64,000 nt of DNA, taken from assembly GCF_019391655.1 (NCBI RefSeq), contig NZ_JAHXPQ010000005.1:124001-188000 (forward strand), read 5' to 3'. This stretch comes from Mucilaginibacter rivuli (GTDB taxonomy: Bacteria; Bacteroidota; Bacteroidia; Sphingobacteriales; Sphingobacteriaceae). Position numbers and translations under genes: made by a program. The notes beneath the pieces are model-generated. The model ran no database searches. It saw only the letters and a program-made list of their open reading frames with translations, and was not told where the DNA came from. Below are positions 17,038 to 34,205 of the stretch, piece by piece. How positions within the stretch are numbered: the first letter of the stretch is position 1; every line of letters starts with the position of its first letter.

Positions 17038-17510
17038 AACTAACAAAGTTAATTAAAAGCGGAATAATTGAATGATCCATACCTTATGGCCCTATAGGAA
17101 ATGATTTGGAATTATCCTGTTAAAAAGCGTGAGTAGGCATTGAACATTTATGCTATCAATTTGTCCAAATGTATCATGTTGGCATAAATTAAACAGGTCA
17201 AATTTGTAATGGTGCCGATATCCCCTTCGTTGCCGACCAATTAAAATTGCCGATACCGAATTAATATTCTTGTTTTTACAATGTACTGAGGATTCGTACG
17301 ATTAATTTATGCAACCGATTACAAAATACTTTTTCATTCACCTGCAGAGTTGAGATTGTATTTACAAATAATATAAACCTATATATACCAACCAATTATG
17401 ACCATAACCCCAAAAAAACAAAATGAAAAAGCTTCAAACCTAAATGGATACTAATCTGTGCCTGTCGGCAATGCTAAGCAAAGATCAAATTTTAACCAAA
17501 AAATCATTTT
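17038..17510. promoter_or_regulatory. 473-bp divergent spacer with repeated TGCCGA motifs
   Basis: AT-rich spacer between the TPR kinase and susC genes without a credible ORF. Three TGCCGA hexamers lie at 17213, 17231 and 17248, spaced 18 and 17 bp, within imperfect repeats that share CCAATTAA/CGAATTAA tails, and an inverted TCGGCA occurs at 17464-17469. They could be regulator half-sites for susC. No full TTG/TAnnTTTG promoter is clear. Confidence 0.4.
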
Positions 17511-20500: not shown

Positions 20501-20672
20501 GGTTTACAATACCGTGGGAGCCAATACTGTGGCGCCAACAGGTGTATCAGCCACCGGAAACATTGCCGGCTTTGACCCTAATAATGCGTTTGGTTCTCCA
20601 TTTCGCGGCTTAGGCATTTATTCGGGCACGGCAACCCGCGATTTTATTATTGGTATCAATGCAAGATTTTAA
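17511..20672 (+). CDS. SusC/RagA-family TonB-linked outer-membrane transporter
   Basis: A 1053-residue transporter. Signal peptide (ending near ALYAQ, about residue 29), CpD-reg domain (about 33-110, VVDDTGLPLPGASV), the SusC linker DLNEVVVVGYGT (about 112-123), plug with GVILITTNRG, then the barrel with the C-terminal strand IIGINARF. It forms the membrane pore under a SusD lid and imports a glycan or other oligomer. The SusD gene follows after 12 bp. No glycosidase, sulfatase, sigma factor or anti-sigma gene accompanies this pair, so the substrate cannot be inferred. This copy is not close enough to the 30429-33566 transporter to be a recent duplicate. Confidence 0.95.
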   Translation: MRKIQHSKKWKFYMITMLSTLFSIALYAQTTTFNGKVVDDTGLPLPGASVRVTGTTTGVTTNINGDFSLNASPGIKSITISFIGFTDQQKAISRGVTNLGTITLQKNARDLNEVVVVGYGTVKRADVTGTVATVDAKVLQEIPASNVFEQLKGRVAGLDVSSNTSGTPIITIRGNRTIGSAPGTDGPLVVLDGQPYYNSIENIDPNDIKSVDVLKGASATAIYGSRGSGGVILITTNRGRVGQTITTYDSYVGINKLEGQLKVLNGTEFAQLQADALQGSVLQGNGATNPYALTAIQLKALQENVSTDYANLLVKNGMVWDQSLRVSGGTEKTQFTVGAGYRINTGIEPNNSTKRISLNLTLDHKINDYIKFGLSSQTSLRLITAGGGSQLQSARYMSPLTYPYNADGSINILPQSDQLDATTLNPLVPGRSPDQFYNDTRGYVSNNILYGEVSPVNHLKYRYTVGYNFSQSLAGTYNGINGAGILSIAQTNASTTNNYSYRLNQEHLLTYDNTFAKKHAVNFVAGFTVENAHTENSSISGTGIPQDAVRNENMALAGIISAVSGSYIEQSIISYVGRLNYAFDHRYDLTATFRSDANSALAQGHQTTTYPSVGLGWVISNENFMKRFAFIDNLKLRAGYGQTSTIASIAPYGTLGQLSQSKYQYGGSSAGNAQGVLVTQLPNVDLTWQRTGEYNIALDFAVLKNRITGSVEVFKQRTTGIILNNILPGTTGVRSQNSNLGTSEDKGLELTLSSVNLQNAGGFNWATDFNISFIRERVVELPNGALSATGVGEFVGQPLSTIYDLKKIGIWQTSEATQAAVYGQKPGQIKIEDYFPDGKINSADNQFIGNFQPQYTFGLTNRFNYKNFDLNIVIQAKMDFTTIVPYVSSSNSALTGWQYLNLGRHNQPVIDYWTPNNPTNAFPEPNANFQPPYYSTLQYYDGSFIRAKSINVGYNVPAKLTKHIGMSSLRIYANVTNPFFIYAPVRNHSFSVPDAESVYNTVGANTVAPTGVSATGNIAGFDPNNAFGSPFRGLGIYSGTATRDFIIGINARF

Positions 20673-20684
20673 TTGTAAGTATTT

Positions 20685-22622
20685 ATGAAAATATTAACTA
20701 AAACCAGTTTTATTGTTGCAGTGGCAGCAATACTAACCACAGCTACAGGCTGTAAAAAGCAATTGGAAGAAGTACCAAGGGCTAATCTCTATCCGGATTA
20801 TTTTGGTACAGCAGGTGGCGTGCAAGCAGCTGTTACCGGTGTTTATAATAATTTGCGAAGCAGTTTCGGTAACGAGGGCATTGTATATTACTATGATGGT
20901 ACAGACGAAAATATTGCAGGTGGCAGTTCGCAAACCAATCCTACCATCTGGAACTCTTATAATGGTATAAACTCGTCTAACGGGCCCGATCTGATAGGCT
21001 TATACACCAACATTAATACATTGAACGGAGTTTTGCAATATGCGCCTACCATAACAGACGCAACGGCCAGAACACAGTATGTAGCACAAGCTAAGTTTTT
21101 GCGCGGATGGTGTTATTTTTTATTAGTGCAAACTTACGGAGGAACAACAGCTACACAGCAAAGCGGTATACCCCTGCATACCACTTTTATTACACAAGCT
21201 ACAACAGCCGATGCACCGGCATCATTGGTTGATCTGTATAACCTTATCATCCAGGATTTTAAAGATGCCGCAGCAGCACTGCCACCTACCATGACCGGAA
21301 GCCCGTTTTCGGCAAACGGCATTGGTAAAACGGCTACTGCAGCCGTAGCAAATGCTTACCTGGCTAAGGCTTACCTTACCAGGGGCTACACAGAAGCTAA
21401 GCAAACCGGCGATTTTCAGCAAGCGGCTGATATTACTGCCGCGTTGATAGCCAACAAAGGTACCTATGGGCTAGACTTGTGGCAGGACTATTGGGATGCC
21501 CACAAGCCCGCGAATGATTATGGTAAAGAAAACATGTTTACTATTGATTTTGGGGTTACCGACCCATTATACTCAGGGAATGTGCAGCAAGGTGCAGGCG
21601 GGTTTGGCATTAATTTTATGAGTGTGATACAACGTTTTAATTATTTTACCAATACCGGTGTTAATAATGGAGTAGGTATTGATGCTGTACCTCAAAAGAT
21701 CACCGGAGGTGCAAGCATGTTAAGGGATGTTTATAACCACCGCCCTTATATACGCATAGCGCCGAATGGCCCTTATTTAACCACTGCCTTTGCAGATCAG
21801 ATACATGATACCCGATATGATGCCACTTTCCAAACGTATTGGATCTGTAATACTACTGTAGCTGCAGGTACCAATAGTACAGGTGGTTCAAAAGGGCAAC
21901 TTATTAAAACTTCAAATGTATCATTAACCTCATACCAAATACCTATAGATGGTGATACATCCATTTTGATGCCAAGCGCAGACGTTACCATGGCCCGCCG
22001 GGATGCCTTTAAGGGTTTGATCGTTACGCCTAAACAATTTAACAACAACGTTTTTCCGAACGTTAAGAAGTTTGATGACCCGAACCGGACAAGCATCCTC
22101 GATTTCAGCTTCCGTCCGCTTGTATTATTACGTTTTTCTGAGGTTTACCTGGTAAACGCTGAAGCCAATTATATGGCTGGCCACATACCAGAAGCGGCGG
22201 CATCACTCAATGTAATAAGGCAACGGTCGGCCTATCGTACGCCTGCCGATGGCGCTTTTACAGCTAAAAACCAATTTAGTGTTACAGCAGCTACCATGGG
22301 TGCGGCTAATGCCGCCAATGCCGCTGCAATGCTTTTAACACCGGCACAATTGGCACAATTAGCCATACCTAATACAACTACCGGATCTACGCTTTGTGGC
22401 ATGGATCTGATTCTTGAAGAGTATTCGCGGGAGTTTTGGGGAGACCCACGCAGGTGGTATGATCTGGTAAGAACAGGGCAGCTAACACGCAGGGTAAAAA
22501 TGTATAACCCTATTGGTGGCCCTAATATTCAGGATTATCATTCGCGCCGGCCAATCCCTCAAACCCTGATCGATGCTGTTCTTTCGGGGCCAAAATATCC
22601 ACAAAATAACCAGTATAACTAA
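20685..22622 (+). CDS. SusD/RagB-family surface nutrient-binding lipoprotein
   Basis: A 645-residue lipoprotein, signal peptide ending at TTATGC with lipidated C23. The N-terminal SusD region (VPRANLYPDYFGTAGGVQAAVTGVY in part) and TPR-like helices with AKFLRGWCYF (about 130) are typical, as are the C-terminal motifs DPNRTS, RPLVLLRFSEVYL, ANYMAG and RREFWGDPRRWYDLVRT-like ending (EFWGDPRRWYDL). At 645 residues it is longer than most SusD proteins (about 500-600). It caps the SusC pore encoded just upstream. A terminator follows, so the operon has two genes. Confidence 0.94.
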   Translation: MKILTKTSFIVAVAAILTTATGCKKQLEEVPRANLYPDYFGTAGGVQAAVTGVYNNLRSSFGNEGIVYYYDGTDENIAGGSSQTNPTIWNSYNGINSSNGPDLIGLYTNINTLNGVLQYAPTITDATARTQYVAQAKFLRGWCYFLLVQTYGGTTATQQSGIPLHTTFITQATTADAPASLVDLYNLIIQDFKDAAAALPPTMTGSPFSANGIGKTATAAVANAYLAKAYLTRGYTEAKQTGDFQQAADITAALIANKGTYGLDLWQDYWDAHKPANDYGKENMFTIDFGVTDPLYSGNVQQGAGGFGINFMSVIQRFNYFTNTGVNNGVGIDAVPQKITGGASMLRDVYNHRPYIRIAPNGPYLTTAFADQIHDTRYDATFQTYWICNTTVAAGTNSTGGSKGQLIKTSNVSLTSYQIPIDGDTSILMPSADVTMARRDAFKGLIVTPKQFNNNVFPNVKKFDDPNRTSILDFSFRPLVLLRFSEVYLVNAEANYMAGHIPEAAASLNVIRQRSAYRTPADGAFTAKNQFSVTAATMGAANAANAAAMLLTPAQLAQLAIPNTTTGSTLCGMDLILEEYSREFWGDPRRWYDLVRTGQLTRRVKMYNPIGGPNIQDYHSRRPIPQTLIDAVLSGPKYPQNNQYN

Positions 22623-22706
22623 CCATCGGCTCCTATTCAATTAATTGACCGAACATTAATCATAATATCAATCGTCTTACTTCTGATTTTTAAATGAGAT
22701 GTATGC

Positions 22707-22738
22707 AAAGAGTGTTGGATAACCAACACTCTTTTTTT
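22707..22738 (+). terminator. rho-independent terminator after SusCD pair
   Basis: AAAGAGTGTTGG (22708-22719) pairs with CCAACACTCTTT (22723-22734 region) around a short ATAA-type loop and is followed by TTTTTTT. It ends the two-gene susC-susD operon. Confidence 0.88.
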
Positions 22739-22834
22739 GTTCAGCTTAAAGAACTAATTCGTGTTGCGTAATTACCTGATTTTCGATTTAAACAGAAGTA
22801 TAATATTGGTTTTAAATGAATCTCATTTAAGTTT

Positions 22835-23797
22835 TTAAATATAGACAGTTTCATTGTCGATCTTGTTACCTATCTGCTGAGACTCATGAAAGTTTCTGAA
22901 ATTACTATCTTCCTTTGGCTCAACTTTATTAATATCTACCCTAACCATCGGCCCGTCGGCCGCGAGTTCACTGCCAGCGACGTTTGATTTAAAGATCGGC
23001 CAGGCCAGTTGTGCATACCATGGATCAGCTTCGTAATGTGATATGCCATAGGCTTCCGGGTACTGCCTTGAGATATGCGCTGTTCCGAAAATAATATCCC
23101 AAATAAAGAACATGTTACCAAAATTACCTTTGTAGTATCCTACCCCATCATCGGTTGTAGCAGCGTGATGCGCATGGTGTGTTGCCGGAGTTGATATGGT
23201 ACGCTCCAATACCCAGGCTATTGGGTGAAGCACCTTATACTGATAAAAAGGCTTATCCCATGGAATACTGGAATGCGCCAAGGTGGTAATAACACTTTTA
23301 ATACCCTTAACAATAACAGCCGGAACACCCAAGCCCAAATAAACCAATGTAGAGGTTACATAGGTTTGCGAAAAGAACAGCGAATAGATCACATTTTGCC
23401 TACTGGCCATGGCCATACCCATGTAGTTGGCCGAGTGATGGGTACGGTGAAAACGCCATAACCAGGGTAACTCGTGGTGCAGGCGGTGATACCAGTATTG
23501 GGTCAGATCATCAGTAATGGCAATAATGAGCGCGCCCCAGAAAAACGGCACCCAGTTAAAACTGCCCTTAAGGCCGGGCAACGCGTATGGTAAAAACCTT
23601 AAAGTAAAATAAGCTACCGCAGGTTTGATAACCAGCTTTGGTAAGGTATAGCAGGCAATATCCACCCATTTTTCATTTTTATTCCAGCGCTTTTTATACA
23701 AGCCGAACGAAAATTCTAACGCGCCAAGCGTCCACACAAAAATAACAAACCCATAGCCATCGGCTCCCAGGAATGTTTGTCTTAAAAATTCAAGCAT
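22835..23797 (-). CDS. sterol desaturase / fatty acid hydroxylase family membrane protein
   Basis: A 320-residue di-iron membrane enzyme. The histidine boxes are intact: HRLHH (in YWYHRLHHELPW), HRTHHS and THHAHHA. About four to six hydrophobic segments surround them. Family members hydroxylate or desaturate lipids, carotenoids or sterols using oxygen. The gene is last in a minus-strand series that begins with a SusCD pair and contains two sulfatases, and two tiny membrane-protein genes lie just upstream (5 bp before its start). The last 50 residues are a polar tail. An actual sterol substrate is not implied; a lipid released from a sulfated ester is one possibility. Confidence 0.9.
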   Translation of the reverse strand: MLEFLRQTFLGADGYGFVIFVWTLGALEFSFGLYKKRWNKNEKWVDIACYTLPKLVIKPAVAYFTLRFLPYALPGLKGSFNWVPFFWGALIIAITDDLTQYWYHRLHHELPWLWRFHRTHHSANYMGMAMASRQNVIYSLFFSQTYVTSTLVYLGLGVPAVIVKGIKSVITTLAHSSIPWDKPFYQYKVLHPIAWVLERTISTPATHHAHHAATTDDGVGYYKGNFGNMFFIWDIIFGTAHISRQYPEAYGISHYEADPWYAQLAWPIFKSNVAGSELAADGPMVRVDINKVEPKEDSNFRNFHESQQIGNKIDNETVYI

Positions 23798-23802
23798 AGT
23801 CT

Positions 23803-23982
23803 TTAGTTTTTATGATTTACAGTTGATTGATCTACTTTCTTAGTATTCTGGTTCTTTAACCAGGGGCGCTGACCGGTTACATAAAAAGTGAGGATCATTA
23901 AGATCACCGGCAGCGTATAGATGAACAAACTCAGGATAGCATTCCTGATGATCCTTTTTTTAACAGGTTCTTCCAGTTTCAT
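23803..23982 (-). CDS. small single-pass membrane protein, 59 aa
   Basis: This short gene encodes a basic N-terminus (MKLEEPVKKRIIRN), one hydrophobic helix (about 15-38, LSLFIYTLPVILMILTFYV) and a polar tail. Its ATG overlaps the stop of the 57-residue gene upstream (ATGA), and its stop is 5 bp from the sterol desaturase start, so all three are probably translated together. No family is recognised. The size and position suggest an accessory or regulatory subunit of the neighbouring membrane enzyme. Confidence 0.7.
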   Translation of the reverse strand: MKLEEPVKKRIIRNAILSLFIYTLPVILMILTFYVTGQRPWLKNQNTKKVDQSTVNHKN

Positions 23983-24152
23983 TTTTGTTGATTTTGAGGG
24001 TGTGTATTCGATATTTGAATTTTAGCAGCCTCATCCGTAAACAATTTACGGATGAGGGTTAAGCCGCCAACGGTAATGGTGAGCGGGATGATGGAAATAA
24101 CGATACCAAGAAGTATCTTTTTTCCCAATAAGTTTACATCGTTTAGTGTCAT
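23979..24152 (-). CDS. small single-pass membrane protein, 57 aa
   Basis: A 57-residue frame beginning MTLNDVNLLGKK, with one hydrophobic helix (about 13-36, containing GIVISIIPLTITVGG) and a polar, glutamine-rich tail. It starts 24 bp after the sulfatase stop and ends in an ATGA overlap with the next small gene. That tight packing, the coherent membrane topology and the absence of a competing frame support a real gene. No family recognised. Confidence 0.68.
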   Translation of the reverse strand: MTLNDVNLLGKKILLGIVISIIPLTITVGGLTLIRKLFTDEAAKIQISNTHPQNQQK

Positions 24153-24175
24153 AAGTAATATTTAAATAGTTAACA

Positions 24176-25783
24176 TCATTCAGCTTTTTTAGCGGCTTTA
24201 CTCAATTCATCCCAATTTCTTACGCCTACTTTGGCTGCCCAGGCAAGGTATTCCGTTTCTAAAGCTTTTACCTTGCCGGGATATTTTGCGGCGAGGTTAT
24301 TGGTTTCCGAACGGTCATTGGTCAAATCATATAATTCCCATTCGGCATGGTTTTCGGCAACGAGTTTCCATTGGCCCTTGCGGATAGCACGACTGCCTTC
24401 ATGTTCCCAAAACAAAGCATCGTGATCTTTAAATGGCTTGCCATTAAAGGCATTTACCAAACTCACACCTTGCGCCGTTGTAAGCTTCCGGCCATTATAT
24501 TGTTCAGGATAGTTCACACCTGCCAAATTGAGGCAGGTAGGCAAAATATCAATAAAATGAGCGGGTTGCCTGTTCACCGCTCCCGGCTTGATAACACCCG
24601 GATAGTACGCGATGAAGGGTGTTGCAATACCGCCTTCGTGCGTATTCTTCTTAAATCCTTTAAAGGGCGTATTGCTTACATTGGCCCAGGGCGTTTCATA
24701 ACTGTCGATAGATGCTACCGAACCGGGGCCACCTGCTTTTTGGATCACATTCGTCCAGTTCTTTACGTCATCGGCACTGCCGCCATTGTCTGATAGGAAT
24801 AGAACCACCGTATTCTTGTCCTTTTTAATTTCTTTTAGCTTAGCCAGTATCTCACCTACTCCCGCATCCATTCGGTCTATCATAGCGGCATAAATAGCCA
24901 TGCGGGTATCCCATTTGTCTTTTTCTTCAGCGCTAAGCTTATCCCAATCGGGCACCTTTTCATAGCGTGGCGATAGCTTCCAATCATTTTTGATAATGCC
25001 GAGCACACGCAGTTTTTGATAACGTTGTGCACGCAGCTTATCCCAGCCATTCAAATACTTGCCTTTGTATTTGGCAATATCCTGTGGCAATGCTTGTATG
25101 GGCCAGTGCGGGGCATTATATGCCACGTATAAAAAGAAAGGCTTTTGCTCGTTTTTGATTTGATGTAATGATCGGATAGCAAAATGTGTGATTGCCTGCG
25201 TTAAATACTCGGAAGTATCATTCCTGAATACCTGCTTATCATTCAGCATAAAGGTTATTTTGCTGCCATCATTAAACAACGGATCAGAATTAAAATAGCT
25301 GCTCGCATTATTAAGCATGGTGAACGACTGGTCGAACCCGCGGTTATACGCTAATGCCGATGGTACTAAGCCCACGTGCCACTTACCCGAAACAATGGTA
25401 TTGTAACCCGCTTCGGCTTTCAGCAACTCGGCTATGGTGGCGCAGTTATCGTTCAGGTAACCCCGGTATGCCGGATCGCCCCAGTCTTTTACCATATCGC
25501 CAACCCCAGCCTGGTGTGGGTATAACCCGGTAAGCAATGCCGTGCGCGACGGGCAGCACCTGCCCGCGTTATAAAACTGGGTTAGTTTTAAACCTTGAGC
25601 AGCAAGGCGGTCAATGTTAGGCGTATGTATTTCTGAGCCAAAACTTCCCAGGTCGGCAAAGCCCATATCGTCAGCTAAAATGATAACAATGTTGGGCTTA
25701 GTTTTATGAGCCTGCGCTAAAGCAGTGCTGCCGGTAAACAGCAGCACTGCCATGATAAATAAATGGAGCTTAGTTAACTGCAC
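24176..25783 (-). CDS. arylsulfatase, FGly-dependent, secreted
   Basis: A 535-residue sulfatase. The best start is a GTG at 25783 inside the end of the upstream gene, giving a basic-then-hydrophobic signal peptide ending ALAQ (24); an internal ATG (M11) is the alternative. Sulfatase hallmarks: NIVIILADDMG (metal ligands D38/D39), the formylglycine motif C76-C-P-S-R80 followed by TALLTG, SGKWHVG, and LFLSDNGG. The cysteine must be converted to formylglycine by an anaerobic-type or other maturase; none is encoded nearby. It cleaves sulfate esters in the periplasm. It shares its cluster with a second sulfatase of a different length and sequence, so the two probably act on different bonds. Confidence 0.94.
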   Translation of the reverse strand: MQLTKLHLFIMAVLLFTGSTALAQAHKTKPNIVIILADDMGFADLGSFGSEIHTPNIDRLAAQGLKLTQFYNAGRCCPSRTALLTGLYPHQAGVGDMVKDWGDPAYRGYLNDNCATIAELLKAEAGYNTIVSGKWHVGLVPSALAYNRGFDQSFTMLNNASSYFNSDPLFNDGSKITFMLNDKQVFRNDTSEYLTQAITHFAIRSLHQIKNEQKPFFLYVAYNAPHWPIQALPQDIAKYKGKYLNGWDKLRAQRYQKLRVLGIIKNDWKLSPRYEKVPDWDKLSAEEKDKWDTRMAIYAAMIDRMDAGVGEILAKLKEIKKDKNTVVLFLSDNGGSADDVKNWTNVIQKAGGPGSVASIDSYETPWANVSNTPFKGFKKNTHEGGIATPFIAYYPGVIKPGAVNRQPAHFIDILPTCLNLAGVNYPEQYNGRKLTTAQGVSLVNAFNGKPFKDHDALFWEHEGSRAIRKGQWKLVAENHAEWELYDLTNDRSETNNLAAKYPGKVKALETEYLAWAAKVGVRNWDELSKAAKKAE

Positions 25784-26504
25784 TTGCCAGTTTGGTTTTA
25801 TTGCTGTTTACAGCCTGCTCAATTTGTACAGTGGATGAAAAGCCTGATTTTTTCCATACCTCTTTTTTACCGCGGTAAAGCACCAGCGTTGGCAAAACAT
25901 TTATTTTAAGCTGTTTGGCCAAAACAGTATTGTCATACTGTTCAATGCTGATCACTTTAGCGGCAAAGCCTGGTTTGCTTTTCAGCGAATCCAATACAGG
26001 GATTAACTTTTTGCAGGCACCACAGTATTTCGAACCAAAATCCACCAGTACAAGGTCTGCAGAGCCAGTTAATGCCTGGTATTGTGCAAACGATAAGGAA
26101 ACGCCCTTTTTAGTGGTTGAAATAATAGGATAACCTGAGCCTACCCAGTTAGCTAAACCTCCCGGAAGTTCGTAAACTGCTTTAAAGCCTTTTTCACGCA
26201 GTTGTGCAGATAATACCGAACTGCGGCCATTGGCGATAGAATATACAAAGGTTGGCTTATCTTTATTTAAACCATCAAGAACCTGCTGGTAGTTAGCCGA
26301 TTTTTGATCCACATTTACAGCGCCTTTAATATGGTTTTGTAAAAACTCCTCATTGCCACGGGCATCCAGAATTTGCGCGTTGCTACCGGCTTGCTTTAAA
26401 TTGGCACTGAACTGCTCAAGGCTTATACCGCTTTTGTTTTGAGCGTGAACTGCCGCCCCCGTAAGGGCAAGCAGGCCAACAATAATCGATTTAATTTTTT
26501 TCAT
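25770..26504 (-). CDS. exported rhodanese-thioredoxin fusion; rhodanese cysteine missing
   Basis: A 244-residue exported protein (signal peptide to about A21-Q22). Residues 25-130 form a rhodanese-like domain (ILDARGNEEFLQNHIKGAVN, then ELPGGLANW), but the active-site loop reads S89-IANG-R94 where an active enzyme has cysteine. Residues 140-240 form a thioredoxin-like domain with C161-GA-C164 and the cis-proline region NVLPTLVLY. So the rhodanese half should be catalytically dead as a sulfurtransferase, while the thioredoxin half can do disulfide exchange. It lies between two sulfatase genes, overlapping the downstream one by 14 bp. A role in folding or redox protection of sulfatases, or in handling released sulfur compounds, is inference. 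Confidence 0.87.
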   Translation of the reverse strand: MKKIKSIIVGLLALTGAAVHAQNKSGISLEQFSANLKQAGSNAQILDARGNEEFLQNHIKGAVNVDQKSANYQQVLDGLNKDKPTFVYSIANGRSSVLSAQLREKGFKAVYELPGGLANWVGSGYPIISTTKKGVSLSFAQYQALTGSADLVLVDFGSKYCGACKKLIPVLDSLKSKPGFAAKVISIEQYDNTVLAKQLKINVLPTLVLYRGKKEVWKKSGFSSTVQIEQAVNSNKTKLASAVN

Positions 26505-26521
26505 GGTTTTGTACGATTTAC

Positions 26522-28375
26522 TTAGTTGTTGTTTTCTAAATGATGGATGCGTTTACTGTTCACATCGTCGCGATCGATGAACGGGTAGATGTGGTTTTTC
26601 CAGGCTTCGGCTTCAAAAGCTGCTTTTAATTCCTTTAGTTTTTCAGGATATTTTGCTGCCAGGTCTACGCGTTCGTTAAAATCTTCGTTCAGGTTATATA
26701 GTTTCCATACATCCTTTTCATAATCCGGTGGGGTTGCTGGTTTTAATCCTGGATAGATCAACAGGTCAATGTTATCCGGGCGGTGTGCCGCCTCTGCCTT
26801 CCAGCCATCTTTGTAAATAGCGCGCGAAGTAAAAATGTAGTAGTACTGCGTGGTATGTAACGATGCAGCCTTTGCGTTATTGAATGAACTGAACAACGAC
26901 TTGCCTTGTAAGGTATCCTGTTTAATCCCTTTAATGTATTCAGGCAATTTCAATCCTGCCGCCTCAATGGTGGTAGGGAAAATATCCGATACGTGCCCGT
27001 ATTGTGTACGTATCCCTTTTTCTTTAATTAGTTTAGGATAGTAAACGATCAAAGGATTGTGCGTACCGCCTTCGGCATCCGCGTCAGATTTCCATTGCTT
27101 GAATGGTGTATTGGCGGCTTGTGCCCAGCCTAAGGGGTAATTGGTGCTGGCTTCAGGCGTACCTATAGCTTCCAGTTCGGCCTCGTTATTTTTTATGTAT
27201 TGCTCGGCAGTATTAGTTAAAGCTGAATTTGATGGTTTGATTACACCGCTGTAAGTACCTTCTTTACTGGCGCCGTTATCTCCTATCATCACAAATACTA
27301 ATGTATTATCAAACTGCCCGGTTTTCTTTAAATGCGTGATCACACGGCCAACCTGGTCATCAATATAAGTGAGGTAACCGGCATAAACCTCCATAAAGCG
27401 GGCATACAGTTTCTGCTGATCGGCAGGCAGGCTGTTCCAGGCTTTTACCCTTTCATTACGTTCTGGCAGTTGGGCATAAGCAGGTATGTAACCTAATTTC
27501 TTTTGGTTAGCAAATACCTCTTCGCGGTAAGCGTCCCAGCCTTTATCAAACTTGCCTTTGTACAGATCGCTCCATTCTTTGGCTACCTGGTGTGGTGCAT
27601 GTGTAGCAGCGGGTGCGTAATACAAAAAGAAAGGTTTATCGGGTGCTGCTTTGTATGCACGGTCAATATAAGCGATAGCCTTATCTGTAATCTGCTCGTT
27701 CAGGTTACGGCCATCAGGTTTTACGTGGAAGTTATCTTCAACCAAATGCGGCGGGTGGTATTGGTCTGTCGCCGATTCAAGGAATCCAAAATGGTGATCG
27801 AAACCTTTACCTGTGGGCCAGCGGTCAAACGGGCCAACATCGGTGGTATCTTCATCCGGCGTTACGCCCCATTTACCTACCGCAAAGGTACTGTATCCGT
27901 TGTAGCGTAAGGCCTGTGCTATAGTCCCTTTATCTTCAGGGATACGGCCATCATATCCTGGGAAACCGGCAGCAGTACTGGCATGGGCAAAATTACCCAT
28001 GTGTACATAATGGTGGTTGCGGCCTGTTAACAAAGATGATCGAGTTGGCGCGCAAATACCGGCTGTATGGAAATTGGTATAACGCAAGCCATTATTGGCC
28101 AGCGCATCAAAATTTGGTGTGTTGATCAAACCTCCAAACGTGGCTGAAGCGCCAAAGCCAACGTCGTCCAATAATATCCAAACAATGTTGGGTGAACCTG
28201 CCGGTGCATGCTGCGGCTTAGGCCACCATTCTTTCGATTCAGCCAGTGTTTTTTTAACTACGCCTTTGTAAGTTTCGGGTGTTGAGGGTGGGATATTTTG
28301 TTGCGCGCTCGCGCTCCATCCTAAAACTGAGAACAAGCCTAACAATGCAGCTTTATATAATCTGTAAGTTTTCAT
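26522..28375 (-). CDS. arylsulfatase, FGly-dependent, secreted (AtsA-like)
   Basis: A 617-residue sulfatase with signal peptide (ending SASAQQ, about 26), metal ligands in WILLDDVGFG (D70/D71), formylglycine motif C108-A-P-T-R112 followed by SSLLTGR, VGKWG and VMIGDNGASKEG. The length and the insertions after the NHHYVHMG segment resemble the Pseudomonas AtsA-type arylsulfatases. It acts on sulfate esters and needs cysteine-to-formylglycine maturation. It starts 43 bp after the rhodanese gene and belongs to the same minus-strand cluster as the SusCD pair. Confidence 0.94.
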   Translation of the reverse strand: MKTYRLYKAALLGLFSVLGWSASAQQNIPPSTPETYKGVVKKTLAESKEWWPKPQHAPAGSPNIVWILLDDVGFGASATFGGLINTPNFDALANNGLRYTNFHTAGICAPTRSSLLTGRNHHYVHMGNFAHASTAAGFPGYDGRIPEDKGTIAQALRYNGYSTFAVGKWGVTPDEDTTDVGPFDRWPTGKGFDHHFGFLESATDQYHPPHLVEDNFHVKPDGRNLNEQITDKAIAYIDRAYKAAPDKPFFLYYAPAATHAPHQVAKEWSDLYKGKFDKGWDAYREEVFANQKKLGYIPAYAQLPERNERVKAWNSLPADQQKLYARFMEVYAGYLTYIDDQVGRVITHLKKTGQFDNTLVFVMIGDNGASKEGTYSGVIKPSNSALTNTAEQYIKNNEAELEAIGTPEASTNYPLGWAQAANTPFKQWKSDADAEGGTHNPLIVYYPKLIKEKGIRTQYGHVSDIFPTTIEAAGLKLPEYIKGIKQDTLQGKSLFSSFNNAKAASLHTTQYYYIFTSRAIYKDGWKAEAAHRPDNIDLLIYPGLKPATPPDYEKDVWKLYNLNEDFNERVDLAAKYPEKLKELKAAFEAEAWKNHIYPFIDRDDVNSKRIHHLENNN

Positions 28376-28417
28376 GTTGTTATTTTATTTTTATTGAATT
28401 TAACGTTGCGTAAATTG

Positions 28418-28834
28418 TTATTGCGCCGGGAAACCGGCTTTAATTAAACTATCAATACCGCCAATGTTATAGCTATGGGTGTAACCCAGGGTTTGCAGGC
28501 TATCGGTAGCTTTACCGCTTCGGTTACCTGAATGACAGTACAGGTACACTTTCTTATCCTTACCCAACTTTTTTACCTGTGTGCCAAAATCAGCCGACCG
28601 GATATTAATATTTTGCGCATATTTCAAATGCTGCTTATCATATTCTTCGGGCGTACGTACATCCACCAGGTAGGCTTTGCCTTGCGCTATTTCGGCGAGC
28701 AGGTTGGCACTGATTTTTGTATTTACTACAATCTTATTGGGGCTTTTTTGTACATAAGGCACATGAGCCTCCTGGGCCTTTATGCCTAGTGTTGCTATAA
28801 GTAACACTAGAGTTATGATATTTTTCTTTTTCAT
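28418..28834 (-). CDS. exported single-domain rhodanese
   Basis: I use ATG 28834 (138 residues), 2 bp after the susD stop; the upstream TTG start would overlap susD. A signal peptide ends near GIKAQ (21). The rhodanese domain has YLVDVRTPEEYDKQHL (55-70) and the active-site loop C100-HSGN-R105, intact. Rhodaneses move sulfane sulfur from thiosulfate or persulfides to a thiol acceptor. Its place between susD and a sulfatase suggests a periplasmic job in sulfur handling during organosulfate use. It is distinct from the inactive rhodanese half encoded two genes later. Confidence 0.9.
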   Translation of the reverse strand: MKKKNIITLVLLIATLGIKAQEAHVPYVQKSPNKIVVNTKISANLLAEIAQGKAYLVDVRTPEEYDKQHLKYAQNINIRSADFGTQVKKLGKDKKVYLYCHSGNRSGKATDSLQTLGYTHSYNIGGIDSLIKAGFPAQ

Positions 28835-28836
28835 GA

Positions 28837-30414
28837 TTACCAACCTGGGTTTTGAGTGAGTTTACCGTTACTGTTATCTATTTCTTGTTGTGGGATAGGG
28901 AAAAGGTAAAATTTGCCGAATACACCTTTGCTCACGTTGGTTTTACCTACCTTTAATAAGGAAGCTTCGAGTATCCCGTGGTTATAACCAGTTCCTGCCG
29001 GATCTTTTTCGCGAATCAGATCGAACCAGCGCTGGTATTCAAATACAAACTCTAACCTGCGCTCCAGGTAAACCGCCTGCCTGAACTGGTCTTGCGTTAA
29101 GCCCGGTGTAATTACACCGCCCGGTATAGCGCGCGATCTTACCTGGTTAATTGCCGTATAAGCTTTAAGCGTTGGGCCATTGAGTTCGTTCTCTGCTTCA
29201 GCAGCTATCAGCAATACTTCGGCATAACGGATGATCGGTACATTTGCACCCGATTCGCTCAGGTTACCTACTATGCTCGGATCCCAATATTTATTGAAAA
29301 ATGGTACAGAGTCGCCCAATATCTTCGGGTCATTCAGTTTACCGTAATAAGTTCCGGTAGATGGGCTTAAAAAACGTGTAACAAAAGTTTCGGTTTTCCG
29401 CTTATCGCCGGCAGGGTATAATTTATATACGCTGAAAAAATGATCTATACCGTCAGGCTTCGTAGCATCAGCAACATTGTAAAACACGGTTTGATCGGCA
29501 TAAGAAGCTACGATACCCGGTATACCTGTTAACACAGAGCGTGGTGCCTGGTTATTACCCTGCCCTAATGAGTTTGATTTGAACTGGGCCGAAAATATAT
29601 GTTCAACCCCGTTTTTAGTAGCCGGTAAAAACACATCGGGATAGTTGGTAAATAACTTATAGGTACCGCTCGCGATAACTGCATCTGCAGCTGTAATTGC
29701 GCTTTGCCATTTACCTTCGGTTAAATAAACCTTTGATAAAAGTGATTTCGCGGCGCCTGATGTTGCCCTGCCAATATCGGCACTGCCATAGCTTACCGGT
29801 AAAACTGTAAAGGCTTCGTTTAGGTCTTTCTCTATTTGTGTGTATACGGCAGCTGCCGGTGTACGGCCAACCTGCAGATCGGAAAGGTTTACCGAGGTTT
29901 GATCGTGCAGTACCAAAGGCACATCGCCATATAACCTTACCAGGTTAAAATAATATAGTGCCCTCAAAAATTTGGCCTCTCCAATTAAACGGGCTTTCAA
30001 CGTTGATTCAAATGCTATTGATGGAATAGTATCGATAGCGATATTAGCCTTTTTAATGGCTGCATAATGTTGCTGCCATATCTGCAATACACGCAAGCCT
30101 GTCGAGGAATGGCCCAATACCGCTTGCGAGCGTACATCGGCATTGGTAGCGCCCGGTCCGGGACCCTCATCATCACCCATAAAATTCATCCCTGTATTAA
30201 AAAGGGTGTTATATGGTGTTTGAACGGTATTTGAGCCGGCGTTAAGTAATGAGTATGCTGCTGTAACAGCGGCAACTGCATCGGCCTGTGTTCTGTAAAA
30301 TTGACTGGCCGGGATAAATGACTGCGGTGTTTCTGATAATTTAGCGCAGGAAGACGCGCCAAAACCAACAGCCAGCAATAACAGGTATTTTATTTTATTC
30401 ATGATGTTTTGCAT
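28837..30414 (-). CDS. SusD/RagB-family surface lipoprotein of the sulfatase locus
   Basis: A 525-residue lipoprotein. The signal peptide is best read from either M1 or M5 (ATG at 30414 or 30402) and ends in GASSC, lipidated C23. SusD features: ETPQSFIPASQFYRT, an AKFLRALYYFNLVRLYGDVPL helix, RYAEVLLIAAEAENE, and the C-terminal YLERRLEFVFEYQRWFDLIR segment. It starts 14 bp after susC and ends 2 bp before the rhodanese gene. It should bind the locus substrate at the surface. Confidence 0.95.
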   Translation of the reverse strand: MQNIMNKIKYLLLLAVGFGASSCAKLSETPQSFIPASQFYRTQADAVAAVTAAYSLLNAGSNTVQTPYNTLFNTGMNFMGDDEGPGPGATNADVRSQAVLGHSSTGLRVLQIWQQHYAAIKKANIAIDTIPSIAFESTLKARLIGEAKFLRALYYFNLVRLYGDVPLVLHDQTSVNLSDLQVGRTPAAAVYTQIEKDLNEAFTVLPVSYGSADIGRATSGAAKSLLSKVYLTEGKWQSAITAADAVIASGTYKLFTNYPDVFLPATKNGVEHIFSAQFKSNSLGQGNNQAPRSVLTGIPGIVASYADQTVFYNVADATKPDGIDHFFSVYKLYPAGDKRKTETFVTRFLSPSTGTYYGKLNDPKILGDSVPFFNKYWDPSIVGNLSESGANVPIIRYAEVLLIAAEAENELNGPTLKAYTAINQVRSRAIPGGVITPGLTQDQFRQAVYLERRLEFVFEYQRWFDLIREKDPAGTGYNHGILEASLLKVGKTNVSKGVFGKFYLFPIPQQEIDNSNGKLTQNPGW

Positions 30415-30428
30415 TAGTTGTATTTAAA

Positions 30429-33400
30429 TTAAAGGGTTATAGAAACACCCGCTATAATTGATTTAGCATTTGGATATGCCCCGTTATCAACACCCGAGCT
30501 GATGGCATTTTGCCCGTTGGTGCTTACTTCAGGATCATAACCTGTATAGTTTGTCCAGGTGGCCAGGTTAACTCCGGTTACATAAACACGTATTTTTTGA
30601 ACAGGCGATTTTGACAGGATAGATTTGGGAATGGTATACCCTATGCTCAGGTTTTTTAACCGCAGGTAAGATCCATCCGCAATAAAACGATCAGATACGG
30701 TAGCTGCAGGGTCCTGGAACGCGCTGTGTACATCGGTATTTGTATTTGTTGGTGTCCACCTGTTCAACAGTGTAGTAATGGCGTTGGTGTAACCGGTACC
30801 CAGTTCAAGTACTGCCCTTTGCTGGTTATAGATCTTGTTACCATAAGACGTTTGAAAAAAGATGCTCAAGTCAATACCTTTATAGTTAAAAGTATTAGTA
30901 ATGCCACCGGTAAATTTGGCTTGCGAGTTACCAAGAATCACCCTGTCGCCGGCTTGTGTGATCTTATTATCGTTATTAACATCAACATAAGCCTGGCCAC
31001 CCGGCGAAGTATTTGCCGCAGGTGTTAATGCTGTACCGCCGGCTTGTATCAAACCATTGGTTTTGTAACCAATGAACGAACCTATTGGCTCACCAACTTT
31101 TAAGATAGAAGGCAATGATGAGTCGGGAATGAACTGATCAACACCATTCCCGCCAAGGCTTAATACCTTGTTACGGTTAACGGCGAATACGATACCTGTG
31201 TTCCATTTAAAGTTGCCAACAAGGTTGCGGGTATTTAAACTTAATTCAAATCCTTTGTTCTCAACCGAGCCTACGTTCTCAAATTGTTGCGGGTTGGTAA
31301 TAGCGGTATTGGTAATAATTGTTAACCCGCTTGTTGCCGGTAATGGCAGGTATATTAACAGGTTGCTTGTTTTTTTGTAATACACATCAGCCACCAGGCT
31401 AATGCGGTCTTTTAACAAACCTAAATCGAAACCAAAATCATATTGAGCTGTTTTTTCCCAGGTTAAATTTTGATTGTACAAAGTATTTGGTGCGAAGCCA
31501 ATACTTGTAGTATTACCGAAATTGTAACGGTATGAGCCTAACTGAGAGAATGACTGGTAAGGCGGGATATCGCTATTACCTGTTAAACCTGCGCTTAGCC
31601 TCAATTTTAATTGACTGATGGCATCAACATTCTTTAAAAAATCTTCGCTTGATGCATTCCAGGCAATGGCTGCCGAAGGGAAGCTTGCCCACTGGTGGCC
31701 ATCAGCAAACTTTGATGAACCATCGGCACGAATGGTTAAGGTTAACAGGTATTTATCATTGAACCCGTAATTGATACGGCCCAGGTATGATTTTAAGGCC
31801 CATGCATTGTATGATGACGAAGGCGCTATAGCAAAGCCGCTACCTGTAATTGATGTTACACTACCGGAACCGATATTGTTGTATGTGCTCAGATCGCTCA
31901 CAAAACCTGATGATCCGGCTACTGATCCTTCCGCGCTAAAGGCTTGCTGGGTAAAGCCTGCCAACACATTAAGCGAATGTTTGCCGAACTTTTTAACATA
32001 GGTTACTGTATTTTCATTCAGCCAGTTGGTAGAGTAAAGTGTCCCGGTTTCTGCAAGTCCGCCAAAACCAGAGCCTTCATATACTGTTGAAGGCAGGTAA
32101 CGGTTTTGTTTATTATCAATAATATCAATACCCAACAGTACCCTGGCCGTTAAATCCTTTGTTAATTTATAATCACCGGATATGTTGGATAATATCCTGT
32201 TGGTAGTTGTATTGTTGATCTGGTTATACAGTGTATTGATTGGATTACCATATACGCCCTCAAATGCATTTTTAAGGAAGAAAGTACCATCAGTATTGTA
32301 AACCGGAGTGGTAGGTGTCATCAATAGTATTGCGGGTACCACGCTATTTGGCGCTACCTGTGCCACTGTATGGCCGCCTGCAACGTATGCTGAGATCTTT
32401 AACTTATCATTATAATCATGCTCTACATTCAACCTTCCACCATAGCGCTGAAAGTTAGTATTTTGCAGTATACCGTCCTGGGCAGAGTAATTCCCCGAAA
32501 AGGCGATGCGTGTGCGGTCTGTACCAGTTAAAACCGATAGCGTATGACTTTGTATACCTGCCTGGCGGAAAGCGGCATCCTGCCAATCTGTATTGATATT
32601 GCCATAAGGGAAAAGCGCTGCCGTAGTTGGTGCAGCTTTACCCGAATTGATAAATGCATCTGTACGTAAAGATGCCCATTGATCGCTGTTTAACAGGTCG
32701 ATCTTTTTGGTGACTTTTTGTAAGCCATAGCTACCGTCATAGGTAATTGACGACTGGCCTGCTTTGCCCTTTTTAGTGGAAATAATGATAACCCCATTTG
32801 CACCGCGGGTACCATATATGGCTGTTGCCGAAGCGTCTTTTAATACGTCAATACTCTCTATATCACCCGGATTGATAGATGCCAAAGGGTTAATTGCCGT
32901 GCCACCGGTTACACCGGCATCTGTTAACGAATTACTGTTGGATGTAGGGAAACCATCAATAACGTAAAGCGGTTCGGCTACTGCGTTTACCGAGTTGATA
33001 CCGCGTATTTGCACCGTAGTACCGGCTCCCGGCTGGCCGCTGGCCTGCGTGAACTGAACGCCGGATATGGTTCCTTGTAAGGCGCGATCGAAGGATAAAG
33101 AAGGCTGTGCCAATGCCAACGCCGGTACAGAAGCCACAGCTCCCGTAATGTCTTTACGTTTTTGCGTACCGTATCCTACAACTACTACATCATTAAGCTG
33201 ATTAACAATTTCTTTTAATGAAATTTCGATAGGGCTACCGTTAGCAGTGATTTTAGCTTGTTCGTACCCGATAAATGTAACTGTAAGGTTATACGGGAAT
33301 TTTTGACCTGTAACAAAGCTGAATTTACCATCCAGATCTGTTGAAACCGCATGTGTGGTACCTTCAATGCGCACAACAGCGCCGGGTAATGGTTCTTTTG

Positions 33401-33566
33401 TGATGGCATCAACAACACGTCCAACTAATTTGGAGTTTATTGTTGGTTGATTTTGAGCAGATGCCGCTAATGTGATAAATATCAGGATGATACCCGTAAA
33501 GTAACGGAGGGGTATCCGGGATAAGGAAAGGATATACCTGTTCCTTATATGTGCAATATTTTGCAT
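30429..33566 (-). CDS. SusC/RagA-family transporter of the sulfatase locus
   Basis: A 1045-residue TonB-linked transporter: signal peptide ending SAQ (about 38), CpD-reg domain (about 45-125, VVDAITKEPLPGAVV), QLNDVVVVGYGTQKRKD linker (about 127-142), plug with SIDVLKDASATAIYGTRGAN and GVIIISTKKG, and a barrel ending in AGVSITL. It starts the minus-strand sulfatase cluster and likely imports the sulfated or desulfated product. The long leader upstream carries a perfect hairpin and palindromes. Confidence 0.95.
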   Translation of the reverse strand: MQNIAHIRNRYILSLSRIPLRYFTGIILIFITLAASAQNQPTINSKLVGRVVDAITKEPLPGAVVRIEGTTHAVSTDLDGKFSFVTGQKFPYNLTVTFIGYEQAKITANGSPIEISLKEIVNQLNDVVVVGYGTQKRKDITGAVASVPALALAQPSLSFDRALQGTISGVQFTQASGQPGAGTTVQIRGINSVNAVAEPLYVIDGFPTSNSNSLTDAGVTGGTAINPLASINPGDIESIDVLKDASATAIYGTRGANGVIIISTKKGKAGQSSITYDGSYGLQKVTKKIDLLNSDQWASLRTDAFINSGKAAPTTAALFPYGNINTDWQDAAFRQAGIQSHTLSVLTGTDRTRIAFSGNYSAQDGILQNTNFQRYGGRLNVEHDYNDKLKISAYVAGGHTVAQVAPNSVVPAILLMTPTTPVYNTDGTFFLKNAFEGVYGNPINTLYNQINNTTTNRILSNISGDYKLTKDLTARVLLGIDIIDNKQNRYLPSTVYEGSGFGGLAETGTLYSTNWLNENTVTYVKKFGKHSLNVLAGFTQQAFSAEGSVAGSSGFVSDLSTYNNIGSGSVTSITGSGFAIAPSSSYNAWALKSYLGRINYGFNDKYLLTLTIRADGSSKFADGHQWASFPSAAIAWNASSEDFLKNVDAISQLKLRLSAGLTGNSDIPPYQSFSQLGSYRYNFGNTTSIGFAPNTLYNQNLTWEKTAQYDFGFDLGLLKDRISLVADVYYKKTSNLLIYLPLPATSGLTIITNTAITNPQQFENVGSVENKGFELSLNTRNLVGNFKWNTGIVFAVNRNKVLSLGGNGVDQFIPDSSLPSILKVGEPIGSFIGYKTNGLIQAGGTALTPAANTSPGGQAYVDVNNDNKITQAGDRVILGNSQAKFTGGITNTFNYKGIDLSIFFQTSYGNKIYNQQRAVLELGTGYTNAITTLLNRWTPTNTNTDVHSAFQDPAATVSDRFIADGSYLRLKNLSIGYTIPKSILSKSPVQKIRVYVTGVNLATWTNYTGYDPEVSTNGQNAISSGVDNGAYPNAKSIIAGVSITL

Positions 33567-34205
33567 AATTTTGAATTAGTTTAAAATGACATAAATGAAG
33601 CAGGCTCAACGCCAATCGATTTCTGCTTCGTTGTTTTAGATTCGCAGGGAAAGGGTTAATACCCTTTCCCTATTTTTGCACCGGGTATTATATTTTCATA
33701 ATTTTCTTCCTCCTTGTAAGTGTGTTTACGACCAGTTCCTGCTCGCTAAAAAATTTTATTAAGTTGATGGATGTACCAGTAGAAACGGTACCGGTGAAGT
33801 GTTTGCCGTTGCGTGTTTAGCAACAGCAACATGGCATACACATTCGGGTGCTGAAGCCAACTCCCGTTAATTTGAATGTAAGATTGATGATTTGTGTATT
33901 CATTCTTATTAAAATCTACTAAGTCTATAGATTTACTGCAATATTAAGTAAAACTATAGTTTGTTACAAAATTTATTTTAAAAAAATTGGTAATCAGGTT
34001 GCTATTTAATTGTGGAAGGTTTTTAAATATGGCGTACCTAAAGCTTATTCTATTTTGAACGGAATGATTAGAAATAAGTATTTATTTTTTTTCAGTGAGG
34101 ATAGAGGCCAAAAAATGCGGCTTAAAAATGTATTTTAAAACAAAAAAGGCGCAATTTCTTGCGCCTTTTGTACCTTAAAACGGAACCGTATGTTGGGTGT
34201 TTTAG
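33567..34205. promoter_or_regulatory. 639-bp upstream region of the sulfatase-locus susC
   Basis: AT-rich region without a credible ORF. Besides the hairpin at 33646-33671 it holds the palindrome AAACTATAGTTT (33951-33962) and a nearby CTATAG (33925 region), 360-390 bp upstream of susC. The same ACTATAGTT core appears upstream of tspO. I could not fix a promoter for susC. Confidence 0.4.
33646..33671 (-). promoter_or_regulatory. perfect 11-bp hairpin in the susC leader
   Basis: AGGGAAAGGGT (33646-33656) and its exact complement (33661-33671) enclose the loop TAAT, about 80 bp upstream of the susC start. On the plus strand the stem is followed by ATTTTTG, which is terminator-like, while on the minus strand no T run follows. 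It may be a leader regulatory structure or the terminator of an antisense transcript. Confidence 0.5.

Follow-up and report, generated by a model that had tools for sequence, protein, structure and literature searches.

A locus of nine genes on the minus strand of a 64,000-nucleotide stretch of Mucilaginibacter rivuli DNA (contig NZ_JAHXPQ010000005.1, positions 124,001 to 188,000; the window) very probably serves a soil bacterium of the Mucilaginibacter type to scavenge sulfur, as an operon controlled by the supply of cysteine. The genes encode a SusC-SusD pair, two sulfatases, two rhodanese-domain proteins, two microproteins and a membrane oxygenase of the PF04116 family (HYD), and together they have the look of an operon for cysteine starvation rather than for glycan use. 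The evidence is all at the level of sequence: which genes are present, how they are conserved, and which cis elements precede them and recur in relatives. A first-pass annotation had proposed that the substrate is a sulfated lipid or other organosulfate rather than a polysaccharide, or that the locus serves sulfur scavenging. That interpretation is partly supported: the case against a polysaccharide holds up, and the scavenging option is strongly supported by a polycysteine (poly-Cys) leader, an operator common to other poly-Cys operons, an FGE-like gene under such a leader, and neighbours of the CysK-like, CysE-like, YeiH-like and alkyl sulfatase kinds.

The nine open reading frames (ORFs) lie at window positions 22835-33566, and their positions and Pfam domains confirm the single-strand set annotated there. 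In the direction of transcription, the upstream elements and genes are as follows.

33939 to 33970, minus strand: likely promoter, read by eye as TTTG, 20 bases and TAATATTG
33912 to 33934, minus strand: operator-like palindrome AAATCTATAGACTTAGTAGATTT with core TCTATAGACTTAGTAG (33916-33931); the seed matches upstream of relatives
33817 to 33903, minus strand: poly-Cys leader ORF, MNTQIINLTFKLTGVGFSTRMCMPCCCC and a stop, 28 codons, ending MCMPCCCC-stop; recurs in relatives
33647 to 33670, minus strand: hairpin GGGAAAGGG-loop-CCCTTTCCC between leader and SusC, a candidate attenuator without a U-tract
33597 to 33629, minus strand: second hairpin, loop sequence GATTGGCGTTG
30429 to 33566, minus strand: SusC-type TonB-dependent transporter (TonB Plug Pfam match) of the hydroxylase-linked SusC clade
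28837 to 30414, minus strand: SusD-type surface lipoprotein (SusD_RagB Pfam match)
28418 to 28843, minus strand: rhodanese, Rhd (Rhodanese Pfam match; signal peptide by eye)
26522 to 28375, minus strand: sulfatase A, SulA, with CAPTR (Sulfatase Pfam match; signal peptide by eye)
25770 to 26504, minus strand: rhodanese-thioredoxin fusion, RhdTrx (Rhodanese and Thioredoxin Pfam matches; signal peptide by eye)
24176 to 25783, minus strand: sulfatase B, SulB, with CCPSR (Sulfatase Pfam match; signal peptide by eye)
23979 to 24152, minus strand: microprotein sm2, 57 codons, one apparent membrane span by eye, kept beside the hydroxylase
23803 to 23982, minus strand: microprotein sm1, 59 codons, one apparent membrane span by eye, motif TGxRPW, kept beside the hydroxylase
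22835 to 23797, minus strand: HYD, membrane di-iron oxygenase (PF04116 hydroxylase; Pfam FA_hydroxylase match)

The leader ORF, the operator and the hairpins (window 33597-33934), which the first-pass annotation had missed, were reached through words enriched upstream of SusC, which led to a short ORF ending in Cys codons. The stop of this ORF lies 250 nucleotides (nt) ahead of SusC, and an upstream ORF of this kind, short and with consecutive Cys codons, is one mark of a leader-peptide attenuator that responds to cysteine. The promoter element TAATATTG is one mismatch off the Bacteroidota -7 box, TAnnTTTG. Recurrence was examined in a wide set of 94 loci, comprising the best 80 of 315 related stretches, 13 further loci and the window. 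A comparable leader is present in 74 of the 89 loci (window included) that remain when five loci with less than 250 nt upstream are left out, compared with 6 of 445 dinucleotide shuffles. Six of the 15 leader-less loci (L127, L138, L140, L143, L145 and L150) gained a leader in a later scan that reached further and started from other first genes; five of these recovered leaders precede an extra periplasmic binding-protein-like gene. The Cys runs mix both codons, with 226 TGT and 90 TGC in 72 ATG-started leaders. A leucine-rich reading of the leader (the LLLL frame) was rejected because the recurring ATG-started frame reads Cys codons up to the stop. Of 90 upstream regions, 48 carry an operator site within three mismatches of the seed, against 5 of 450 shuffles. 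No poly-Cys leader was seen at 21 other SusC genes examined in the same genome, the SusC that faces the operon among them, and Rfam at gathering thresholds, run on the window and seven relatives, returned no riboswitch at the leader, only tRNAs and Flavo-1.

The same elements occur elsewhere in relatives. Operator and leader pairs also stand ahead of separate SusC operons in L120, L123 and L144. A carbonic-anhydrase-family gene has its own operator and poly-Cys leader in L097 (6837-7672) and, by the same protein start, in L102; this family includes carbonyl sulfide (COS) and CS2 hydrolases. A gene for a PhyH-type 2-oxoglutarate oxygenase (L157:7927-8835), on the strand opposite HYD, follows a two-mismatch operator and the leader MYCCCRQATY. 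The hairpin loop GATTGGCGTTG and its reverse complement AACGCCAATC occur upstream in relatives, in 7 and 17 of 95 upstream regions, respectively.

Exact operators are found three times in the whole genome of the organism, each followed by a poly-Cys leader (two of these read by eye). The first belongs to the SusC operon of the window. The second, at C7:792508 and in reverse orientation, belongs with the leader MHYSAACCCYC to a TonB receptor, and the third, at C10:55319 with the leader MIMCCCS, lies ahead of an AhpC/TSA-like gene and an AGMO-like PF04116 gene (L351:7195-9335). The TonB-dependent receptor on C7 (890 aa; L358:500-3350) is a second candidate sulfur importer. Two-mismatch sites accompany two further operons. 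One, in reverse orientation, stands with the leader MRMSRSPRVMCSCCC at C1:481954, ahead of an FGE-like, putatively sulfatase-maturing lipoprotein that scores 271.7 bits against PF03781 and 631 bits against a profile of the FGE-like family, a family recognised by eye; its only NCBIfam match is GldK, at 156 bits and below cut-off. The other lies 84 nt ahead of an Rrf2 gene (L361:4537-4971) heading a sulfate-assimilation operon (L361:4537-11791) that continues with sulfite reductase, a fusion of a siroheme-synthase-like domain with a TauE sulfite exporter, two genes of the PAPS-reductase family and a CysN-like GTPase; the names CysH, CysD and CysN are suggested by family and gene order. The Rrf2 protein scores 117.3 bits against the superfamily model (cut-off 73.3) and 83.7 against the CymR equivalog, below its cut-off of 195, yet CymR is its best match among the NCBIfam equivalogs. 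The assignment of these two sites rests on position because the class with at most two mismatches, with 19 genome-wide matches versus 12 for a reversed-pattern control, is not clearly enriched. A search for the CCC-stop pattern gave 56 matches in the genome, and the only two intergenic ATG-started leaders among them are those of the window operon and the FGE-like operon.

Several points weigh against cysteine-controlled scavenging as the function of the locus. Nine of the 89 loci have no leader in either scan, and 42 of the 90 upstream regions show no operator with fewer than four mismatches. The leader rule also lets GTG and TTG serve as start codons, and a few of the leaders it passed, such as that of L134, are doubtful. 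Both the leader rule and the operator seed were chosen after examples had been seen, and for this reason, and because the loci are related, the shuffles overstate independence. Since the hairpin of the window lacks a U-tract, a terminator is not demonstrated. The Rrf2 and FGE-like operon sites fall within the genomic background just given and were inspected owing to the hypothesis, and the automatic CCC-stop filter caught only two of the four leaders. HYD itself is uncommon: a draw across the phylum has it in 15 of 395 genomes, and 12 of these belong to the genus g29.

The gene neighbourhood of HYD is conserved. The conserved core consists of HYD, sm1, sm2 and SusCD and has a scattered distribution in Bacteroidota; sulfatases, FGE, rhodanese-thioredoxin and YeiH-like genes are its frequent partners. 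The best 80 stretches come from Mucilaginibacter, Pedobacter, Hufsiella, Olivibacter, Segetibacter, Chryseolinea, Larkinella, Spirosoma, Dyadobacter, Terrimonas and others, and the conserved class spans Sphingobacteriaceae, Chitinophagaceae, Cytophagales and one further genus of the class. Distribution within the family is patchy (36 of 301 same-family genomes). Among the best 30 of 38 same-family matches, window included, sm1 stands beside HYD in all 30 and sm2 in 29; neither was shown in L072 and L073, the two most distant loci. The 38 wider loci (37 and the window) include SusC in 34, SusD in 34, sulfatases in 26, the FGE-like lipoprotein in 18, rhodanese-thioredoxin in 11 and rhodanese in 7. 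Strict same-strand runs in the 94 loci contain SusC and SusD in 68, sm1 in 72, sm2 in 82, a sulfatase in 57, the FGE-like gene in 36, rhodanese-thioredoxin in 27 and a YeiH-like gene in 12 (ten in g29); under a looser rule, a SusC lies on the same strand at most nine genes away in 84 of 94. As a control, the five other PF04116 genes of the same genome had no homologue of the other operon genes within about 1.5 kb. The first-pass annotation had named an unlinked hydroxylase gene in neighbouring genomes as the finding that would count against it; the linkage of HYD to SusCD proved to be conserved.

Genes of the CysK-like, CysE-like, YeiH-like, FGE-like and alkyl sulfatase kinds adjoin the loci of some relatives. 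The YeiH label is based on PF03601; the NCBIfam YeiH model scores 101 bits, below its cut-off of 232.6. In L170 (10370-12322) an MBL-class alkyl sulfatase is inserted between HYD and rhodanese-thioredoxin; as a general partner this enzyme was rejected, with PF14863 in one of 47 genomes and one of 94 runs. The runs hold 672 genes, of which 49 are unlabelled; the four of these that were scanned are a methyltransferase, an oxidoreductase, a trehalase and a 2-hydroxyacid dehydrogenase. The trehalase gene, which ends one related run (L136:14287-15921), is the only glycosidase seen in the runs, with these four of the unlabelled genes scanned. HYD, SulA and FGE-like genes stand in a row in L151, a metagenome-assembled genome labelled Candidatus Sulfotelmatobacter from another phylum, as a result of transfer or of a binning error.

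The transporters linked to HYD also form a group. In a tree of 123 SusC rows, 80 of the 91 SusCs counted as linked under a loose rule fall in a single clade with an SH-aLRT of 90 (quick method); the 22 own-genome rows included all lie outside it. The 11 linked SusCs outside the clade are nine second SusCs near HYD and the L154/L157 pair. Fifteen 'mini' operons, whose runs contain neither a sulfatase nor FGE, are interspersed in the tree with operons that carry such genes, an arrangement that points to an identical or similar class of substrate.

Both sulfatases of the window are of the S1 formylglycine (FGly) type, with Sulfatase domain scores of 199.7 and 215.6 bits (cut-off 25; E-values 8.5e-59 and 1.3e-63); the FGly motifs CAPTR and CCPSR of the first-pass annotation are both intact in the translations. 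Signal peptides read by eye suggest that the sulfatases and rhodaneses are exported. The closest solved structures of SulA and SulB are the Pseudomonas arylsulfatase PAS (such as 1hdh) and 7all, the latter, an arylsulfatase, being nearest to SulB. 7all is a Bacteroides sugar sulfatase, and both window enzymes are candidate members of the SulfAtlas subfamily S1_4 (PAS-like). The sm2 and sm1 ORFs share a four-base overlap. Elsewhere in the genome (C8; L330:4020-8992), a further S1 sulfatase with CCPTR adjoins a 1096-aa protein that looks glycosidase-like by eye.

HYD and SulA co-occur in the 301 genomes (E-value cut-offs of 1e-20 for HYD and 1e-180 for SulA): 29 have both, seven HYD only, five SulA only and 260 neither, with a Fisher p of about 1e-28 that is nominal, given the relatedness of the species. 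Among the five SulA-only genomes, four have only homologues of 54-57% identity, in frames of 774-786 codons, and the remaining one, G085, has a completeness of 87% and is split into 360 contigs. SulA lies apart from the HYD locus in G089, G285 and G300. Five of the seven HYD-only genomes hold 6 to 14 other PF00884 matches. Two Mucilaginibacter genomes, G219 and G270, retain SusC, SusD, sm2, sm1 and HYD, with operators at one and two mismatches and the leaders MNIFHPTQGSKFLLNMVSLPMFACTRCCCC and MNITYPPKGSNFLQSMALMPVCACTCCCCC, respectively. PF00884 has one match in G219 (29.9 bits) and three in G270 (30.2, 25.5 and 20.5 bits); three of the four exceed the Pfam cut-off of 25, and they are read as other enzymes of the alkaline-phosphatase superfamily because HYD-free genomes contain their equals in size and frame length. 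A clear S1 sulfatase and an MBL alkyl sulfatase are thus both missing from the two genomes. The persistence of core, operator and leader there suggests that the oxygenase may serve sulfur metabolism in its own right.

HYD is a member of PF04116 (83.3 bits against a cut-off of 31; FA_hydroxylase E-value 2.6e-23), with nine His residues invariant in 58 sequences. These residues, at 104, 108, 117, 120, 121, 175, 207, 210 and 211, match His 132, 136, 145, 148, 149, 201, 221, 224 and 225 of human AGMO, with spacings of 4, 9, 3, 1, 54, 32, 3 and 1 in HYD and 4, 9, 3, 1, 52, 20, 3 and 1 in AGMO. The AGMO residues used for comparison are those given in PMC7911779. Equivalents of N235, W243 and D244 are found through the AGMO-like paralogue of the same genome, and one of Q162 by spacing only. 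The essential D233 and Y236, in contrast, correspond to K223 and F226 in HYD when aligned through the paralogue, not to human AGMO itself. HYD, of about 320 aa, also lacks the C-terminal AGMO domain PF24858 (only PF04116 is found at E 0.001), and the AGMO-like regulon paralogue scores 25.1 against PF24858 (cut-off 28.3). The sole NCBIfam match of HYD is the OlsE equivalog NF052566, at 52.2 bits where the cut-off is 475. With the histidines of AGMO but not its D233 and Y236, HYD is thus a distinct kind of PF04116 oxygenase that can be equated with neither AGMO nor OlsE. A comparison of the HYD sequence with solved structures gave no relative and at most four chance matches. The first AlphaFold model was poor (pLDDT 62.4) and the second good (82.5); with the model, Foldseek returned nothing under E 0.001, and VIA-align over eight chains gave one row only (Z 3.2). 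Because no solved relative was found, structure is silent on the substrate.

From these observations we infer the cysteine response, the identity of the regulator, the substrate and the reaction of HYD. When cysteine is low, the operator would be vacated by a repressor, for which the Rrf2 protein encoded first in the sulfate-assimilation operon is the probable candidate, and ribosomes stalled at the Cys codons of the leader would allow transcription or translation to go on into the operon. Through SusCD the cell would take up an organosulfur compound that is probably a small or amphipathic molecule and not a polysaccharide. Both S1 sulfatases, apparently exported and presumably matured by the FGE-like lipoprotein from the sister operon with its leader of the same kind, would release sulfate, and the rhodanese and rhodanese-thioredoxin, apparently exported too, may process sulfane sulfur or maintain the enzymes in a reduced state. 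At the inner membrane, HYD would oxidise the imported compound together with sm1 and sm2, and the resulting sulfate or sulfite would enter the sulfate-assimilation route encoded in the genome (CysDN-like, CysH-like and sulfite reductase).

For HYD, it is tentatively possible that the enzyme, with sm1 and sm2, frees sulfur by hydroxylating the carbon beside a sulfate or sulfonate, the product collapsing to an aldehyde and sulfate or sulfite, by analogy with AGMO, which hydroxylates the carbon beside an ether oxygen. Such a reaction would explain why G219 and G270 keep SusCD, sm2, sm1, HYD, operator and leader without a clear sulfatase, and why an AGMO-like PF04116 gene stands behind another operator and poly-Cys leader. 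If so, SusCD and HYD would be a minimal organosulfur-scavenging machine. It is rather unlikely that HYD instead hydroxylates a membrane lipid of the cell itself, in an OlsE-like manner, as part of the sulfur-starvation response and is merely co-regulated with the scavenging genes. That function would equally lead one to expect the AGMO-like gene of the regulon, and OlsE is the sole, far sub-threshold, NCBIfam match; however, HYD travels with one SusC clade and accompanies SusCD even where there is no clear sulfatase, both of which suggest an imported substrate.

Catabolism of a sulfated lipid or sterol, in which the sulfatases would release an alcohol for HYD to begin degrading as a source of carbon, is improbable. 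It would fit the pairing of a membrane oxygenase with sulfatases, the alkyl sulfatase in the L170 run and the 2-hydroxyacid dehydrogenase in the L159 run. However, no aldehyde or alcohol dehydrogenase, beta-oxidation gene or other recurring lipid-catabolic gene was seen among the labelled run genes and the four unlabelled ones (of 49) that were scanned, and cysteine-type regulation is ill-suited to a carbon pathway.

A sulfated-glycan locus, where SusCD imports a sulfated oligosaccharide that the sulfatases open for glycosidases encoded elsewhere, was rejected as very improbable. The SusCD pair that marks a polysaccharide utilisation locus is present together with S1 sulfatases, SulB is nearest to 7all, and the L136 run ends with a trehalase gene. 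The glycoside hydrolase or lyase that such a locus should include is absent, though, from the 12 proteins scanned with Pfam in window 15088-33566, the conserved enzyme is a membrane oxygenase, the core persists in two genomes without a clear S1 sulfatase, and the leader and operator are those of other poly-Cys operons. A second SusCD pair (window 17511-22622, plus strand) faces the operon, with neither enzymes beside it nor a leader. Cys-rich small ORFs can also bind metals. That the poly-Cys peptide senses metal or thiol stress and not cysteine supply is nevertheless very improbable, as the partner genes indicate sulfur and the Cys codons end a short leader ahead of the operon, as they do in the mycobacterial cys leaders described in PMC1262725.

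SusCD systems are almost automatically taken as glycan importers, and the conserved class described here looks like one of sulfur nutrition. The cysteine-starvation reading gives a testable substrate class for a SusC clade and a testable function for an uncharacterised PF04116 oxygenase and two microproteins, and the operator with poly-Cys leader provides a cis signature for mapping sulfur regulons across soil Bacteroidota. Cysteine-responsive attenuation has reportedly been described in mycobacteria (Canestrari et al. 2020, going by the title). In the open-licence literature, covered in part, neither a poly-Cys leader in Bacteroidota nor, in that phylum, a cysteine leader before SusCD or sulfatase genes was found. 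A 2010 survey states that leader peptides were known from Proteobacteria and Actinobacteria only, to which Firmicutes were then added (PMC2965389), and a Flavobacterium transcriptome study mentions leader-peptide attenuation at amino-acid operons (PMC9723704). Polycysteine leader ORFs are reported for actinobacterial cys operons (PMC1262725). The leader of the window shares with these a short ORF, a run of Cys codons near the stop and a position upstream of sulfur genes; it differs in occurring in Bacteroidota, behind an operator-like palindrome and ahead of SusCD, sulfatase and oxygenase genes.

Two further systems invite comparison. Like the polysaccharide utilisation loci, the operon is headed by a SusC-SusD pair; unlike them, it has no glycosidase and has a poly-Cys leader. 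Pseudomonas scavenges organosulfur compounds under sulfate starvation with the arylsulfatase AtsA, AtsK and SdsA1. The locus resembles that system in its arylsulfatases, which are of a like kind (PAS being among the closest solved structures), and in its probable control by sulfur supply, whereas it adds TonB-linked import through SusCD, an FGE-like lipoprotein, exported rhodaneses and a membrane di-iron oxygenase.

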